IMG/VR virus record: IMGVR_UViG_3300009120_000016
Location: 1-20,593 of that record
Source of the DNA: a virus
Reading direction: 5' to 3' (one strand)
DNA: 20,593 nt
Shown piece by piece: positions 66 through 5,913 of this stretch. The position numbers were made by a program, and so were the translations under genes. Under the pieces are notes generated by a model, which saw only the letters and a program-made list of their open reading frames with translations, made no database searches and was not told the DNA's origin. The first letter of the stretch is position 1. Each line of letters opens with the position of its first letter.

Positions 66-443
66 ATGTCTAGATTATTAATTAGCGAAGAACCATTAAT
101 TATTAATGCGGATTTAGCTAAATCTCTTAATTGCGTTGAGGCGGCAGCTATGCTTCAGCAATTTCATTTTTGGATTATAAAGCCAGATGCGATTGAAATA
201 GAAAATAAAAAATGGCACAAAGCTTCATATGAAGATTTACATAAAACATTTTTTTGGACTTCAAAATCAAGTCTTCGAAAAATTATTAGCTTTATGGAAA
301 ATATAAAAATAATTATTTCTAAAGAATTTGATTTAACTAACAATAAAAAAACAAAATATTACACTATCGATTACGAAGAGCTTGAAAAGTATTGCGGAAA
401 AGTAAGAGATTCGCTATTGACCGATTCAAAAGTAGTGTATTAG
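66..443 (+). CDS. Short winged-helix replication-initiator-like protein
   Basis: A 125-residue protein that matches only the N-terminal DNA-binding part of the replication initiator encoded next (577-1452). Both start MS[RK]LLI and share, in order, a C-V-x-A-A-x-x-L-Q segment (about residue 23), KKW (about 48), FFW-x-SK-x-x-LR (about 62) and IISKEF (about 83), then T-K-x-[YW]-Y-T before a Y-x-x-L. This pattern is known from winged-helix N-termini of phage and plasmid replication proteins. The protein stops where its paralogue begins the linker that contains the repeats, so it lacks the C-terminal partner-binding domain. The start is firm: AAAGGAG lies 6 bases before the ATG. It could be a regulator that competes for the origin, or a decaying duplicate. 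The family call is fairly sure; the role is inference. Confidence 0.7.
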   Translation: MSRLLISEEPLIINADLAKSLNCVEAAAMLQQFHFWIIKPDAIEIENKKWHKASYEDLHKTFFWTSKSSLRKIISFMENIKIIISKEFDLTNNKKTKYYTIDYEELEKYCGKVRDSLLTDSKVVY

Positions 444-576: not shown

Positions 577-1452
577 ATGTCTAAATTATTAATCGAAGAT
601 GAAAATTATCTTATTTTGTTTCCTATCTTAGTTAAAGCATTTCGATGCGTCAATGCAGCCCTTTTTCTTCAAGGTTTGCATTACCGGATATCGAGCGATA
701 AGGCTCCTGAGCGTGAAGGAAAAAAATGGTATTACTCGACCTACCATCAATGGTTAAAAGAATTTTTTTGGATATCTAAAACTACTCTTAGGGGAGTGAT
801 TAAACAACTTGAAGATTTAAATGTAATTATTTCTAAAGAATTTAGCACGTCCGATGGCGATAGAACTAAATGGTATACTGTCAATTATGATCAGCTTTTG
901 AAAATGAAAATTATTACCAACAAGACCGAATCAAAAACTGACACCCCATGTGTCGAAATCCGACACCCCATGTATCAAAATCCGACACTTGTATATAAGG
1001 AAGAAGAGATAAATAAATATAATAAACAAAATAACAACAACAAGGGTAATACTAATACCTTAGAGACCACTAACGAAACTGTTGTTGTTTTATGTGACAT
1101 TGGTTTTAATAAACATGACGCCGAGCAAATTCTGGCAAAACATGGTGAACAAAAGGTCCTTGAGAAAATAAAAATGATGAAAGACCTTACCGAGCTCCCC
1201 TACAACCAAATTGGATGGCTTAAATCTGCTTGTAGTAAAGACTTCTGTCAAATAACGCATGACAGGAAGAGTAGGGATGAAAAAATCGCTCAGCAGCGAA
1301 ATTTGGAAGAATTAGAGATGAGGAAGAGATTTCAGGAAATGGACCACATTGCTAAAACAAAACATACCGCTGATGGAGTGCGTGCCTACCAGGTAGCAAT
1401 GAGGTTAGTTGGAAGGAAACCTAAAGATATCCCAATTATTGGAGGAGCATAA
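577..1452 (+). CDS. Phage replication initiation protein (O-like)
   Basis: A 291-residue protein with three parts. Residues 1 to about 112 form the winged-helix domain (KKWYYSTY, FFWISK, IISKEF, then DRTKWYT), typical of phage and plasmid origin-binding proteins. Residues about 113-165 are a low-complexity linker, ending in an N/K-rich run, and are encoded by the repeat and A-rich stretch proposed as the origin. Residues about 165-291 are a mainly helical C-terminal domain (GF-x-x-x-x-A-x-x-I-L, then a GWL motif near 214), as in C-terminal regions that recruit helicase or its loader. By analogy with lambda O it should bind its own internal repeats and load the host helicase. The start is set by GAGGAG 5 bases upstream. 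The next gene overlaps its stop by one base. No helicase or loader gene is visible, so the partner is probably the host's or lies outside. Confidence 0.75.
   Translation: MSKLLIEDENYLILFPILVKAFRCVNAALFLQGLHYRISSDKAPEREGKKWYYSTYHQWLKEFFWISKTTLRGVIKQLEDLNVIISKEFSTSDGDRTKWYTVNYDQLLKMKIITNKTESKTDTPCVEIRHPMYQNPTLVYKEEEINKYNKQNNNNKGNTNTLETTNETVVVLCDIGFNKHDAEQILAKHGEQKVLEKIKMMKDLTELPYNQIGWLKSACSKDFCQITHDRKSRDEKIAQQRNLEELEMRKRFQEMDHIAKTKHTADGVRAYQVAMRLVGRKPKDIPIIGGA
939..995 (+). repeat. Iterons, proposed origin-binding repeats
   Basis: Two directly adjacent 22-bp units (939-960 and 961-982) share the core GACACCCCATGT and the A-rich tail TC[GA]AAATC, differing at only a few positions. A third, partial unit starts at 983 with CGACAC-TTGTAT. 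The core holds a dyad: GACAC-cccat-GTGTC is perfect in unit 1 and has one mismatch in unit 2. A matching tail fragment, TCAAAAAC (931-938), precedes unit 1. Tandem dyad-bearing repeats inside the initiator gene are the lambda O/ori arrangement. Confidence 0.65.
991..1065. other. A-rich stretch, proposed DNA unwinding element of the origin
   Basis: Directly after the repeats comes a segment of about 75 bases with very few C residues and strong purine bias (GTATATAAGG, AAATAAATATAATAAAC, then AAC repeats). It encodes the N/K-rich linker of the initiator, which is poorly constrained at protein level. In lambda the region just after the iterons plays the unwinding role. Assigned from position and composition only. 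Confidence 0.5.
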
Positions 1453-1640
1453 TGTCTACGCCAAAATACGAAATTGAAAAACAAACGCAGTCTGAAACTG
1501 AGAAAAAGACACAGGAAGAAATAGATGAGACTCAGGTCATATTGTCTTTTATGAGTTTGAAGCCTACTAAAAAACTGCTTCATAGACGATTAAGTTTTCA
1601 TGAGATGTTTGACAAAGAGGATGCGGACAAGGCCTTCTGA
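1452..1640 (+). CDS. Small charged protein of unknown function
   Basis: A 62-residue protein whose ATG overlaps the last base of the initiator stop codon (TAATG), with GGAGGA about 7 bases upstream, so it should be translated with the initiator. The first 25 residues are very polar (E/K/Q/T), and the C-terminal half is basic then acidic (KKLLHRRLSFHEMFDKED). There is no signal peptide or membrane segment. I do not recognise the family. Its last 51 bases overlap the 3' end of the opposing - strand gene. Position suggests a replication accessory or control role, but nothing in the sequence proves it. Confidence 0.55.
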   Translation: MSTPKYEIEKQTQSETEKKTQEEIDETQVILSFMSLKPTKKLLHRRLSFHEMFDKEDADKAF

Positions 1641-1718
1641 TGTTCTTGGGTTATTTAATACTTCTAAATAACGGTTAAATAGACTTAAATTTTGCAAATT
1701 TTCTTCACTAATGAACAT
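1590..1718 (-). CDS. 42-residue leftward protein under a palindrome-controlled promoter
   Basis: Read on the - strand, a 42-residue frame starts at the ATG at 1718, 6 bases after a strong AAGGAG (1725-1730 in + coordinates). A near-consensus promoter with two palindromic operator-like sites lies just beyond. The product (MFISEENLQNLSLF..., ending VKHLMKT) is probably one or two short helices with a basic end; no family recognised. The frame stays open upstream to 1826, but that would place the promoter inside the gene, so 1718 is preferred. It is the only - strand gene accepted here, and it ends within the 3' end of the 62-residue + gene. It could be a regulatory peptide, or the transcript could act as an antisense RNA. 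Confidence 0.6.
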   Translation of the reverse strand: MFISEENLQNLSLFNRYLEVLNNPRTSEGLVRILFVKHLMKT

Positions 1719-1739
1719 AATTTTCTCCTTGTATAAAAT

Positions 1740-1751
1740 ATATGTACATAT
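1740..1751. promoter_or_regulatory. Operator-like palindrome, copy 1
   Basis: ATATGTACATAT is a perfect 12-bp palindrome. It covers the expected start of transcription (about 5-16 bases past the -10) of the leftward promoter. An identical copy lies at 1764-1775, 24 bp away centre to centre, so the two sites face nearly the same side of the helix. Binding here would block initiation. Confidence 0.6.
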
Positions 1752-1755
1752 GAGA

Positions 1756-1783
1756 ATATTAGCATATGTACATATCTTGTCAA
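1756..1783 (-). promoter_or_regulatory. Leftward sigma70 promoter with extended -10
   Basis: On the - strand, TTGACA (1778-1783) is a perfect -35. After 16 bases comes TAATAT (1756-1761), preceded by TGC to give the extended -10 form TGCTAATAT. It would start transcription near 1749 and drives the 42-residue gene. The same TGCTAATAT occurs in the promoter before the capsid gene. Confidence 0.65.
1764..1775. promoter_or_regulatory. Operator-like palindrome, copy 2
   Basis: This second perfect copy of ATATGTACATAT lies wholly in the spacer between the -35 (1778-1783) and -10 (1756-1761) of the leftward promoter, as in classic repressor-controlled promoters. It also ends 17 bases before the -35 of the divergent + strand promoter, so one bound protein could affect both. 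No repressor gene was identified in the window. Confidence 0.6.
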
Positions 1784-1791
1784 GTATTTTA

Positions 1792-1819
1792 TTGAAATAG
1801 ACGTCATTTGTTGTATATT
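1792..1819 (+). promoter_or_regulatory. Rightward sigma70-like promoter
   Basis: TTGAAA (1792-1797), a 16-base spacer and TATATT (1814-1819) point to the right, divergent from the leftward promoter. It would start near 1826 and drive the lysine-rich gene, small terminase and later head genes. It is weaker than the leftward promoter by match to consensus. Confidence 0.45.
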
Positions 1820-1872: not shown

Positions 1873-1995
1873 GTGGCTAAAAAAGAAATGGCAAAAGAAT
1901 CAAAATCTCACGAAAAGAAAGAAATGAAGATTCTTAATAAGTTAGTTAAGACTGATGAAAGAGCTCATAAAGAAGCTAAAAAGAAAAAGAAATAA
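1873..1995 (+). CDS. Lysine-rich 40-residue protein
   Basis: A small frame starting at GTG (1873), 9 bases after CGGAG. An internal ATG at 1888 would give 35 residues but has no better ribosome site. The product is extremely basic: it starts MAKKEMAKES and ends in KKKKK, with a short K/L/E helix-forming centre (MKILNKLVKTDERAHKEA). Such peptides often bind nucleic acid, but no family is recognised. It is the first gene after the divergent promoter region and lies 43 bases before the small terminase, probably in the same transcript. Confidence 0.55.
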   Translation: MAKKEMAKESKSHEKKEMKILNKLVKTDERAHKEAKKKKK

Positions 1996-2038: not shown

Positions 2039-2590
2039 ATGGATCGCGATATATCAGAAAAGATTGAAAGAATCAGTAAAAGAATCATTGGGAAGTACCC
2101 TTTAAAGTACAATCCAGAGATACACATTCCAATGTTAATAGACCAATTCATGCAGGGCAGAGGTATATCTGCCTTTTGTTATGGTGCTGAAATATGTGAA
2201 AAGACATTTAACAATTGGGTTAATACTCATAAAGACTTCAGTGAAGCTTATTCAATAGCTAAACAGATGTCTAAACTCTGGTGGGAACAAAAGGCTAATG
2301 ACCATTTAGTCAATTTCACTGGCGAGACATTCAATACTACGCTTTGGTCAATCATCATGCGTAATAAGTTTAACTACACTGAGCATCGTAAGATTGAAAT
2401 TCCAGAACTGAAGAAAGCCAAAACTCTAAAAGCTCAAATTAAATGCATCATGGACTACGTATCTGATAACAAGTTAACTGCCAATGAAGCTAATCAGGTA
2501 AGCAACTTGGTTCTTGCTTGCATGAAGGTTGATGAGAATATGGAGCTTAGGAAGAAGGTTGAAGAACTGGAGGCTATGGTTGCTAAATGA
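2039..2590 (+). CDS. Probable terminase small subunit
   Basis: A 183-residue protein. The small terminase binds the packaging site and hands DNA to the large-subunit motor at the portal. The pattern matches the family: an N-terminal segment with a target-search sentence (PEIHIPMLIDQFMQG, then GISAFCYGAEICEKTFNNW, residues about 26-60) reads as a helix-turn-helix, followed by HKDFSEAYSIAKQMSKLWWE, a core of NTTLWSIIMRNKFNYTEHR (residues about 99-117), and a helical C-terminus with a coiled-coil-like end (MELRKKVEELEAMV). Start: AAAGGA 5 bases before the ATG. It sits directly before the portal operon, but no large terminase follows. The alternative is a HTH regulator; the LWS-IIMRN core favours terminase. 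Confidence 0.72.
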   Translation: MDRDISEKIERISKRIIGKYPLKYNPEIHIPMLIDQFMQGRGISAFCYGAEICEKTFNNWVNTHKDFSEAYSIAKQMSKLWWEQKANDHLVNFTGETFNTTLWSIIMRNKFNYTEHRKIEIPELKKAKTLKAQIKCIMDYVSDNKLTANEANQVSNLVLACMKVDENMELRKKVEELEAMVAK

Positions 2591-2739: not shown

Positions 2740-3081
2740 ATGAAATTTAAAGATGTGTTCAAGAAGCTAGCTGCTCCAGTTGTTGCAGTTTCAGTTGGTC
2801 CATTACTTGGTTATAAGGTACATCAAGCTCAGAAAGCTCATGAGAATAGAAAGCAAGGCGGACCTCAACAAGCTGGACCATCTCAGTACGATCAACAACA
2901 GGCTGAGATAGCAAGACAGGCTAGTCTTGTCGAAGAGCAAAGAAGAAGAATCTCAAGCGAAAGAGAAATTTCAACTCGTCGAATAAAGGAAGGCATGATG
3001 CGTTCAAATAGAAGACGAGTGCGCGGAGGATTATTTGGGGACACTCAAGTAGACCAAAATATATCTCAAAGATTGGGATAA
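2740..3081 (+). CDS. Small basic virion-region protein of unknown function
   Basis: A 113-residue protein directly before the portal gene (3-base gap). The N-terminus holds a short hydrophobic, glycine-bearing stretch (about residues 10-26, AAPVVAVSVGPLLGY). A Gln/Gly/Pro-rich middle follows, then a very basic Arg-rich helix (about residues 63-98, with RRRISSERE and SNRRRVRG) and an end reading GLFGDTQVDQ. The position resembles small genes beside the portal in other T7-like podoviruses. The Arg-rich tail suggests contact with DNA or with the portal interior, which is inference. There is no strong Shine-Dalgarno (AGGGA 11 bases upstream), so it may depend on upstream translation. Confidence 0.55.
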   Translation: MKFKDVFKKLAAPVVAVSVGPLLGYKVHQAQKAHENRKQGGPQQAGPSQYDQQQAEIARQASLVEEQRRRISSEREISTRRIKEGMMRSNRRRVRGGLFGDTQVDQNISQRLG

Positions 3082-3084
3082 CCT

Positions 3085-4635
3085 ATGTCTAATATTAAGC
3101 TTGAACGATACAAAAGAAGATACGCGAGAGCTCAGTCTGTTGCTTATCAATGGTGGGCATTGCTGCAGGCGTGCTATCACTACTTAACTCCTCAAAGAAA
3201 CTTGTACTACCAAACAAACCAGACTCAGTCGGCTCAAAGAAACGTTAGAGTATATGATACGACTCAGGTCGCAGCGGGTAGAACATTTGTCTCTAAGCTT
3301 CACAATTTCCTTTGTCCTCCGCAGTTGGTCTGGGCTTATTTAGAGCCTGGTTCAGGTATTCCAGAAGAATTCAAAGCAGAAGCCAATGAAAAGCTTCAAG
3401 CGTACAATCAACGTTTGTTCGAGTATATCCGAAGCTCAAATTTCGATATGGCGATAAATGAGTCTTTTCAGGATTTATTAACTGGAACAGGCGTTCTTGT
3501 GGCAAATGAAGGGCCATCGGATGAGACGCCACTCGTTTTTGGCTCAATTCCTTTGGCTCAAGTTGCCATAGAAGAGTCTATTAACAATAGAGCAGAAAGC
3601 TGTTACAGAACTTGGCAGGAAGTAAAGATAACTGACATTGAAATCATGTGGCCCAGAGCTAAGCTTACTGAAAACATGAGGACACTGATGGAGCAGGACC
3701 CAACTACTACTTTGAAGAATGTAGTTGAGGCTGTCATATATAATCATGGTTCGCCATTTCCATATAATTATTGTATTTGGCATGAGAGCGATATATTGCT
3801 CGACGAGGAAGACACATCTAGTCCTTTAATTATATTCCGTTCATCCAAATTAAATAATGAAGTCTTTGGTCGTGGCGTTGCCATGGATGCATTACCTTCT
3901 ATCATGTCACTTCAGACTGCTTTTTATTTTGAAATGACAGCAGCTAATTTGAATATCTGTAAGCCTTACATGGCGTATAGCGATGGTGTGTTTAACCCAT
4001 GGACATTCTCCATGCAACCAAACACTGTTATTCCTGTATCTCCAACAACTGGTGGCCAGTTCCCAATTCAGCCATTACCTGATGTTGCTAATCCTGCATT
4101 CATGCAATTAACAACTGCAGATTTAAGATTACAGATTAATAAGCTTATGTTTGCAGACCCATTAGGGCCTGCCGAGGTTCAACCTAGAACTGCTTATGAA
4201 TTGTCTCAGCGTCAAAGAGAATTGGCTGAAGAGATTGGTCCAATGTTTACTCGTCTTCAAGATGAGTTCATGCGACCAGTCATTCATAGAATTATTCATA
4301 TCTTAGAGAAGAAAGGGCTGTTGCCTAAGATTGTAATTGATGGAAAAGTTATTTCTGTTAAATACAAATCTCCATTATCTGCTACTCAAGGTCAGCAAGA
4401 CGTTCAAAACTTTGTACAGTATCAGCAAATCATGCAAAGCATTGTCGGACCTGAGTCAGCTTTGTTATATTGCAAACCAGAGCAAGTTGGTGAATGGATT
4501 GCTAATAAGATGTCAATCGATCAAAAGCTTTATAAGACTTCAGAAGAGATGCAGAAGTTCTTTAAGGAACAAAATGAAATTAAGATGCAACGTGAAGAAG
4601 AAGCTAAACAAATGGCAATGATGGGTGCTGCCTAA
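3085..4635 (+). CDS. Portal protein (T7 gp8-type head-tail connector)
   Basis: A 516-residue protein, close to the length of T7 gp8 and its relatives. The portal forms the dodecameric ring at one capsid vertex through which DNA is packaged and ejected. Family features: N-terminal aromatic helix (AYQWWALLQACYHYLTPQRN, residues about 20-39), VYDTTQVAAGRTFVSKLHNFLCPP (about 55-78), a clip/stem-like region with an E-V-FGRGVAMDALPS segment (about 257-271), and RQRELAEEIGPMFTRLQDEF with HRIIHILEKKGLLP (about 378-415). The C-terminus is a charged, Met-rich helix. This order is typical of the podovirus head-to-tail connecting protein family. It lies directly upstream of the scaffold and capsid genes, and its stop overlaps the next start by one base (TAATG). 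Confidence 0.9.
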   Translation: MSNIKLERYKRRYARAQSVAYQWWALLQACYHYLTPQRNLYYQTNQTQSAQRNVRVYDTTQVAAGRTFVSKLHNFLCPPQLVWAYLEPGSGIPEEFKAEANEKLQAYNQRLFEYIRSSNFDMAINESFQDLLTGTGVLVANEGPSDETPLVFGSIPLAQVAIEESINNRAESCYRTWQEVKITDIEIMWPRAKLTENMRTLMEQDPTTTLKNVVEAVIYNHGSPFPYNYCIWHESDILLDEEDTSSPLIIFRSSKLNNEVFGRGVAMDALPSIMSLQTAFYFEMTAANLNICKPYMAYSDGVFNPWTFSMQPNTVIPVSPTTGGQFPIQPLPDVANPAFMQLTTADLRLQINKLMFADPLGPAEVQPRTAYELSQRQRELAEEIGPMFTRLQDEFMRPVIHRIIHILEKKGLLPKIVIDGKVISVKYKSPLSATQGQQDVQNFVQYQQIMQSIVGPESALLYCKPEQVGEWIANKMSIDQKLYKTSEEMQKFFKEQNEIKMQREEEAKQMAMMGAA

Positions 4636-5208: not shown

Positions 5209-5913
5209 ATGGGATTAATTACCGGAGAAACTCCGAAGGAAGATGTTCAACATGAGCATCAAGCCAAAGAAAGCTCGGATGTCTGGTATATAAGGGAAGG
5301 GGTCCCCGGTGAGGGGCCTCGACCTGATTGGCTGCTTCCAAAGTATAACAACATGGAAGTTCAAGCTAAATCCTATCCTGAGCTTATGAAGGTAAAGAGC
5401 ATTGATGTGCAGGTTCCAGAGTCATATCAGCTTGAAAGTGTTTCTGAAATTTTTGACTTAAACAATCCTCACATTTCAGCTATTGCCGCTAAAGCTAAAT
5501 CACACAAACTATCTCAAGATGCTTTGTCTGATATAGTCAGTGAATTTGCCGAGTATCAGAAGTCATTGATGCCAAACGTTGATGAAGAAATCAAAAAGCT
5601 TGGTAACAATGCTCAACAGAGACTCGATACAGTTAACACTTGGGCTACCAATCATTTGTCAAAGAAAGCAGTTGAGACTTTAGGTAAGATTTCATATACA
5701 GCGGATGTTGTTGAAATGCTGGATGAGATTAGACAGATTCATCATGGTATGTCATCAAGAATACCGGTTGGTCAAAATGTCGAACCTGTTAAGATTGAAT
5801 CAGTTGCTGAAATTGATAATGAGATGGCTGCAAATTATTCTAGATACAAAACTGATGCGGTTTATCGGAATAATCTAAATAAGAGAAGAGCCCAAGCTTT
5901 AGGCGAAGATTAG
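5209..5913 (+). CDS. Capsid assembly scaffolding protein
   Basis: A 234-residue protein, acidic at the start and basic at the end. The scaffold guides assembly of the procapsid shell and leaves before or during packaging. Diagnostic features are the early segment with GEGPRPDWL then KYNNMEVQAKSYPEL (residues about 35-60), the 'RPDWL..K+.....A.AY.EL' sentence common to podovirus scaffolds, long helices (about 80-180), and a short basic C-terminal helix (NNLNKRRAQALGED) of the kind that binds capsid subunits. It lies immediately before the capsid gene, as in T7 (gp9 before gp10). It has only a poor Shine-Dalgarno (AAAGG 11 bases before ATG). Confidence 0.82.
   Translation: MGLITGETPKEDVQHEHQAKESSDVWYIREGVPGEGPRPDWLLPKYNNMEVQAKSYPELMKVKSIDVQVPESYQLESVSEIFDLNNPHISAIAAKAKSHKLSQDALSDIVSEFAEYQKSLMPNVDEEIKKLGNNAQQRLDTVNTWATNHLSKKAVETLGKISYTADVVEMLDEIRQIHHGMSSRIPVGQNVEPVKIESVAEIDNEMAANYSRYKTDAVYRNNLNKRRAQALGED

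Follow-up and report, generated by a model that had tools for sequence, protein, structure and literature searches.

A conserved twin-operator promoter upstream of the small terminase gene of a phage, probably controlled by an RHH (Arc/RelB-like) repressor

The covering of a promoter by a small dimeric repressor is a classical mechanism. By operator sequence, the closest precedent for the locus described here is provided by yefM-yoeB and axe-txe: the YefM/Axe operators consist of two TGTACA-core palindromes that overlap the promoter at a distance of 12 bp, centre to centre, and in one case one of the repeats lies in the promoter spacer (PMC7730913, PMC4803016). In acr loci, an Aca repressor acts on one or two inverted repeats placed in the strong early promoters that serve small accessory genes (PMC9410906). 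Two further points of comparison are the phage RHH repressors of the Arc/Mnt type and the phage morons.

The window, that is, the entire 20,593-base virus record analyzed here (a fragment without end repeats), contains two DnaD/O-like replication genes, the region 1740–1783 and then a rightward terS-portal-structural block. Like the yefM-yoeB and axe-txe promoters, region 1740–1783 has paired TGTACA palindromes over a promoter; however, these are 24 bp rather than 12 bp apart, and no YefM/Phd gene was found, so that we did not assign the pair to the yefM-yoeB type. YefM and Axe also have a fold different from that of RHH proteins. With acr-aca the region shares the logic of inverted repeats in the core promoter of small accessory genes, whereas Aca is an HTH protein encoded in the operon that it controls; no acr or aca gene was identified here, and the leftward genes examined in the window and in its nearest relative, contig L007, include none with an HTH family match. 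The Arc/Mnt type is matched by a small RHH protein in L007, by paired palindromes over a promoter and perhaps by autoregulatory-looking sites at the L007 RHH gene. Unlike in that type, the operator is TATGTACATA, in two complete palindromes 24 bp apart, and the RHH gene is neither beside the controlled gene nor on the window fragment. Finally, as in morons, a separately promoted gene is set against the late operon and its cargo varies, including some Lom/OmpX-like barrels, although here there is no clear own terminator and most of the cargo has no known function. No phage reader of such a paired operator is described in the literature that we searched; a probable repressor class can now be proposed for it.

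Operator pair and leftward promoter

The palindrome ATATGTACATAT is present in two mismatch-free copies, O1 and O2 (Table 1), which lie 24 bp apart from start to start, with 12 bp in between, and form the sole identical 12-bp palindrome pair of its kind in the window. The hexamers of the leftward promoter are separated by a 16-bp spacer that harbors O1, the final T of which is also the T of the extended -10 TG, while O2 lies over the expected start at about 1749. Palindromes that are perfect or near-perfect and overlap the promoter to be controlled are what is looked for in RHH operators. The AAGGAG precedes the ATG (1718–1716) of a 42-codon leftward ORF, here called the microgene, by six bases. 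The divergent promoter-like site faces the 40-aa ORF and the terminase/structural operon; the operators are on the leftward promoter only, and the rightward one is without them.

Table 1. Features in and around region 1740–1783 of the window
Feature	Position	Strand	Basis or remark
Operator O1 ATATGTACATAT (predicted)	1764..1775	.	inside promoter spacer; L007 counterpart 4270–4277
Operator O2 ATATGTACATAT (predicted)	1740..1751	.	over expected start site; L007 counterpart 4246–4253
-35 hexamer TTGACA	1778..1783	-	identical hexamer in L007
-10 hexamer TAATAT, TG at 1764–1763	1756..1761	-	identical hexamer in L007
Ribosome-binding site AAGGAG	1725..1730	-	sequence
Microgene ORF, 42 codons (putative)	1590..1718	-	ORF and AAGGAG; no recognized relatives
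Divergent promoter-like site TTGAAA-N16-TATATT	1792..1819	+	consensus match only
ATAGACGTCAT	1797..1807	.	common to L007 (~4488–4498), upstream of small terminase
DnaD/O-like replication initiator or helicase loader	577..1452	+	phrog_6493, E 1e-21; L007 homologue
40-aa lysine-rich ORF, GTG start	1873..1995	+	between divergent promoters and terS
Small terminase subunit (terS), synteny anchor of slot	2039..2590	+	phrog_309, E 9e-5

Chance is excluded as the origin of the palindrome pair: an identical 12-bp pair within 60 bp did not arise in any of 900 Markov simulations (orders 1, 2 and 3), and even 10-bp identical pairs arose in only 5 of the 900 simulated sequences. As the leftward -10 matches the consensus at only four of six positions and sigma-70-like sites are not enriched (14 found versus 17.4 expected), the case for a promoter is made by its conservation in L007 and not by the consensus match. 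Region 1740–1783 is a real, conserved twin-operator promoter.

L007 is the nearest relative among the viral contigs, with a portal 74% identical and a small terminase 50% identical to those of the window, and it carries a homologue of the replication gene. Between that homologue and terS lies a minus-strand TTGACA-N17-TAATAT, with the same hexamers as in the window, together with ATGTACAT palindromes (TGTACA core) exactly 24 bp apart, one of these operators being a perfect 16-bp palindrome, ACAAATGTACATTTGT. The TGTACA cores follow the -35 by 2 and 26 nt in L007 versus 5 and 29 nt in the window. The phase of the pair relative to the promoter has thus shifted by 3–4 bp while the 24-bp spacing has been kept, as expected for a pair that is read as a unit; a fixed, conserved spacing is likewise looked for in RHH operators, and here it is seen in two members of the phage group (n=2). 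The L007 promoter precedes three closely packed leftward ORFs of 84, 44 and 110 codons with ribosome-binding sites; the 84-aa product is unrelated to that of the microgene, even though the promoters are alike, and the RHH gene of L007 lies elsewhere. From these comparisons, the operator pair looks like a conserved unit with replaceable cargo.

Much of what a sequence-only reading had claimed for this region held: the coordinates of the two perfect palindromes, 24 bp apart in the spacer and at the start site, were confirmed, the AAGGAG was found, a promoter-like site adjoins on the divergent side by consensus match, and a repressor-controlled leftward promoter is supported by the recurrence in L007 of the pair, its 24-bp spacing, the hexamers and the genome position. 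The near-consensus extended -10 that it had described is present as to the TG and the hexamers, although the -10 itself falls short of near-consensus. Its further expectation, conservation of the palindrome in related phages, is borne out by L007, the one close relative covering the region, but not by the more distant portal relatives, which are without the pair and many of which do not cover a comparable region. A blastn search of the region against phage records gave no match.

Several other elements were noted in the same part of the two genomes. Between the divergent start and terS, close to the former, the two genomes share the ATAGACGTCAT element in surroundings that are otherwise dissimilar. 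The window has a single GACGTC. An operator-like ATATGTGCATAT with one mismatch is found at 2706–2717 of the window and at 5269–5280 of L007, in the terminal part of a 46-aa ORF that is conserved between the phages; we rejected it as an operator, since it lies in coding sequence and is probably due to the Y-V-H/Y-M peptide. A hammerhead-like core seen by eye upstream of L007 terS was not supported by Rfam, which gave only a sub-threshold chance match for the window and its relatives.

Leftward slot upstream of the small terminase gene

In a survey based on gene calls from a simple script that were inspected by eye, 21 of the 22 relatives that have upstream sequence showed a leftward gene immediately before the small terminase gene; in the window, gene 577..1452 anchors the synteny of this slot on the left. 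A large subgroup carries one conserved protein there (155–156 aa in most members; phrog_3108, unknown function), while relatives outside this subgroup have differing small genes, including outer-membrane beta-barrels of the OmpX/Lom type in L061 (7284–7835, minus; PF13505, E 2.5e-9) and L058 (180–725, minus; a weaker PF13505 match, E 0.0012). Because the slot is leftward and varies throughout the group, the microgene can be taken as the filling of this slot in the window phage. The claim that it is the only leftward gene in the window is a fair one, in that the remaining minus-strand ORFs are antisense to better genes; its description as a lone microgene proved too narrow, since a leftward ORF is indeed present but the slot is filled with different genes in nearly all relatives. 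The nearest portals in phage records show about 31% identity or less, which indicates that the phage group is poorly sampled. By eye, the -10 of the leftward promoter in L061 appears to lie within an imperfect inverted repeat of another sequence, TATGTGT-N9-ACACATA.

The microgene has a codon score of -0.08, compared with a median of -0.27 for spurious ORFs and 0.10–0.54 for real genes. Family searches (Pfam, PHROGs, NCBIfam and PDB sequences) yielded no credible hit, a match to a xylanase (E 0.08) being attributed to chance, and tblastn against all relative and operator loci compared found only the microgene itself. When the microgene was aligned with RHH proteins, CopG, Phd, YefM and the first leftward gene of both L007 and L061, no p fell below 0.05; the best value with the L007 leftward genes was 0.07. 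The end of the microgene falls inside the convergent ORF 1452–1640, and there is no clear terminator for the leftward transcript until 1299–1286. With no convincing terminator ahead of the convergent genes, a leftward RNA without mRNA function is conceivable.

Candidate repressor and alternative readings

An exact scan for ATATGTACATAT-N12-ATATGTACATAT over 2.9 million viral contigs detected the pair in four other contigs, which are unrelated to the window phage. In each of the four, no more than 5 bp separate it from the ATG of a small Arc-like gene, the product of which has a TTVKL strand followed by two helices' worth of sequence and a weak match to an Arc-like PHROG (E 6e-4 and 2e-3 in whole-record searches of the two contigs tested). 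A wider scan for TATGTACATA pairs 14–44 bp apart yielded 50 loci, 34 of them distinct, around which every ATG ORF of 38 codons or more was considered if its start lay no further than 160 bp from the pair. The Arc-like phrog_582 was the commonest family beside these pairs, at 9 of the 34 distinct viral loci, versus none of 12 distinct loci obtained with a scrambled palindrome of the same composition. This association is modest (Fisher p 0.048), the loci being partly related, with the nine ORFs falling into two or three sequence clades. Furthermore, 4 of 14 loci with a 12-bp pair in bacterial genomes adjoin the phrog_582 family. Spacings among the Arc-like loci vary (16, 24 and 29–36 bp) between subfamilies, so that 24 bp is not universal. 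A separate set of TATGTACATA pairs, spaced 32–33 bp and enclosing a GTGTA/TTACA-like element, was seen in L014, L016, L027, L031 and similar related contigs; because no Arc-like gene lies beside pairs of this type, a different class of protein may recognize them.

L007 encodes a 70-aa protein (2881–3093) that matches phrog_582 (E 7e-5, whole-record search) and the RelB/DinJ-type RHH family TIGR02384 (E 8e-4); among viral contigs, its search for relatives returned only itself. When a weight matrix built from four operators, L007's own included, was run over L007, the best pair outside the leftward operators (2827/2847) was located in the promoter region of the RHH gene itself; this pair is degenerate and has a 20-bp spacing, and we estimate by hand that it would arise by chance about once in 100. 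Structure prediction was uninformative, giving two helices and no strand for the L007 RHH monomer (pLDDT 74) and likewise only helices, at low confidence, for the monomer of a second RHH candidate, from the L003 family. Judged from these sequence comparisons, an RHH (Arc/RelB-like) protein is the best candidate for the repressor that reads the operator pair. The sequence-only reading had held that the repressor is not visible; this is true of the window, a 20.6-kb fragment without an RHH gene, for which reason the repressor has to be deduced from relatives, but its class can be proposed through the L007 RHH protein and the Arc-like loci.

We consider it probable that 1740–1783 controls a leftward promoter for an accessory gene and carries twin operators for a dimeric repressor, most probably a phage-encoded RHH (Arc/RelB-like) protein whose gene would lie outside the fragment. 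This reading draws on the operators and their spacing, their conservation at the same locus in L007, the association with Arc-like genes and the pair before the L007 RHH gene. The promoter, of a type suited to the host polymerase, would be active when the phage enters the cell or when the repressor is lost and would afterwards be shut off, with one dimer in the promoter spacer and another over the start site, 24 bp apart; such side-by-side dimers, possibly binding cooperatively, would exclude RNA polymerase. The microgene would be translated as cargo of the variable accessory slot.

If, instead, the leftward transcript were an antisense RNA that silences the convergent replication gene (577–1452), the ORF would be incidental; the location of the ORF end, the lack of a clear early terminator and the inconclusive coding score would suit this, but the good ribosome-binding site at the correct distance and the packed leftward ORFs behind the L007 promoter make it unlikely. 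It is decidedly unlikely that the microgene product is itself a miniature autoregulated repressor. CopG-type RHH repressors have only 45 aa, twin-operator autoregulation is common and no other repressor gene was seen in the fragment; however, the product matches no Pfam, PHROGs or NCBIfam entry, aligns significantly with neither RHH, CopG nor Phd proteins, and by eye has no recognition strand ahead of its first helix, and in L007 the same kind of promoter drives an unrelated protein, with the RHH gene located elsewhere.

The paired TGTACA palindromes of yefM-yoeB and axe-txe, together with the fact that 24 bp is twice 12 bp, raise the idea that a Phd/YefM-type antitoxin of phage or host binds the operators and that the microgene is part or remnant of such a module. 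Against this, the 12-bp spacing is strictly kept in those systems, a PF02604 search of L003, L004, L007, L061 and the window gave no match even with the threshold relaxed to E 1, the microgene compares with Phd at p 0.07 and with YefM at p 0.62, and in other phages the genes next to pairs of this sort are of the Arc-like rather than the Phd-like kind; we regard this reading as very unlikely. The most improbable reading is a lysogeny-type switch, in which the pair would be an immunity-repressor operator and the left/right divergence would switch the late genes: divergent promoters do face away from each other beside terS, and prophage-type outer-membrane barrel genes occupy the slot in relatives, but the operators are confined to the leftward promoter and no tyrosine integrase was found in 14 records, several of them 29–36 kb long (none was detected in the L061 record).

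Extending the RHH-repressor reading to the group, we suggest only tentatively that the slot upstream of terS may be a fixed leftward accessory position of a podovirus-like group, holding varied small proteins (host-takeover, anti-defence or surface-modifying) and, in part of the group, run by a portable TATGTACATA pair at 24 bp together with an RHH repressor whose gene is at another place in the phage genome. A slot of this kind, with variable accessory genes under a conserved switch, could be a source of anti-defence or host-takeover genes, and searches for the operator pair could uncover Arc-like regulons in metagenomic phages.

Elements around the replication gene

The two replication genes of the window (66–443 and 577–1452) are tandem paralogues (37% identical) of a DnaD-like helicase-loader N-terminal domain, which in 66–443 stands alone as a protein of 125 aa. 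A short leftward unit lies immediately before the replication gene, at 554–469 (minus) in the window, ~843–728 in L007 and ~3800–3680 in L061, with TTGACA-N17-GATAAT in the window and L007 and a weaker match in L061. In all three, a GC hairpin and a T run follow the promoter (fold z -2.9, -2.3 and -2.9, respectively). In position and orientation, the unit resembles the lambda OOP RNA, which adjoins gene O (PMC5869508). Within the replication gene itself, direct repeats with GACACCCCATGT are present at 931–974 of the window, and GTGTCACCATGACACC-like repeats at 1239–1300 of the L007 homologue; by analogy with lambda O, these repeats are possible iterons of an internal origin.
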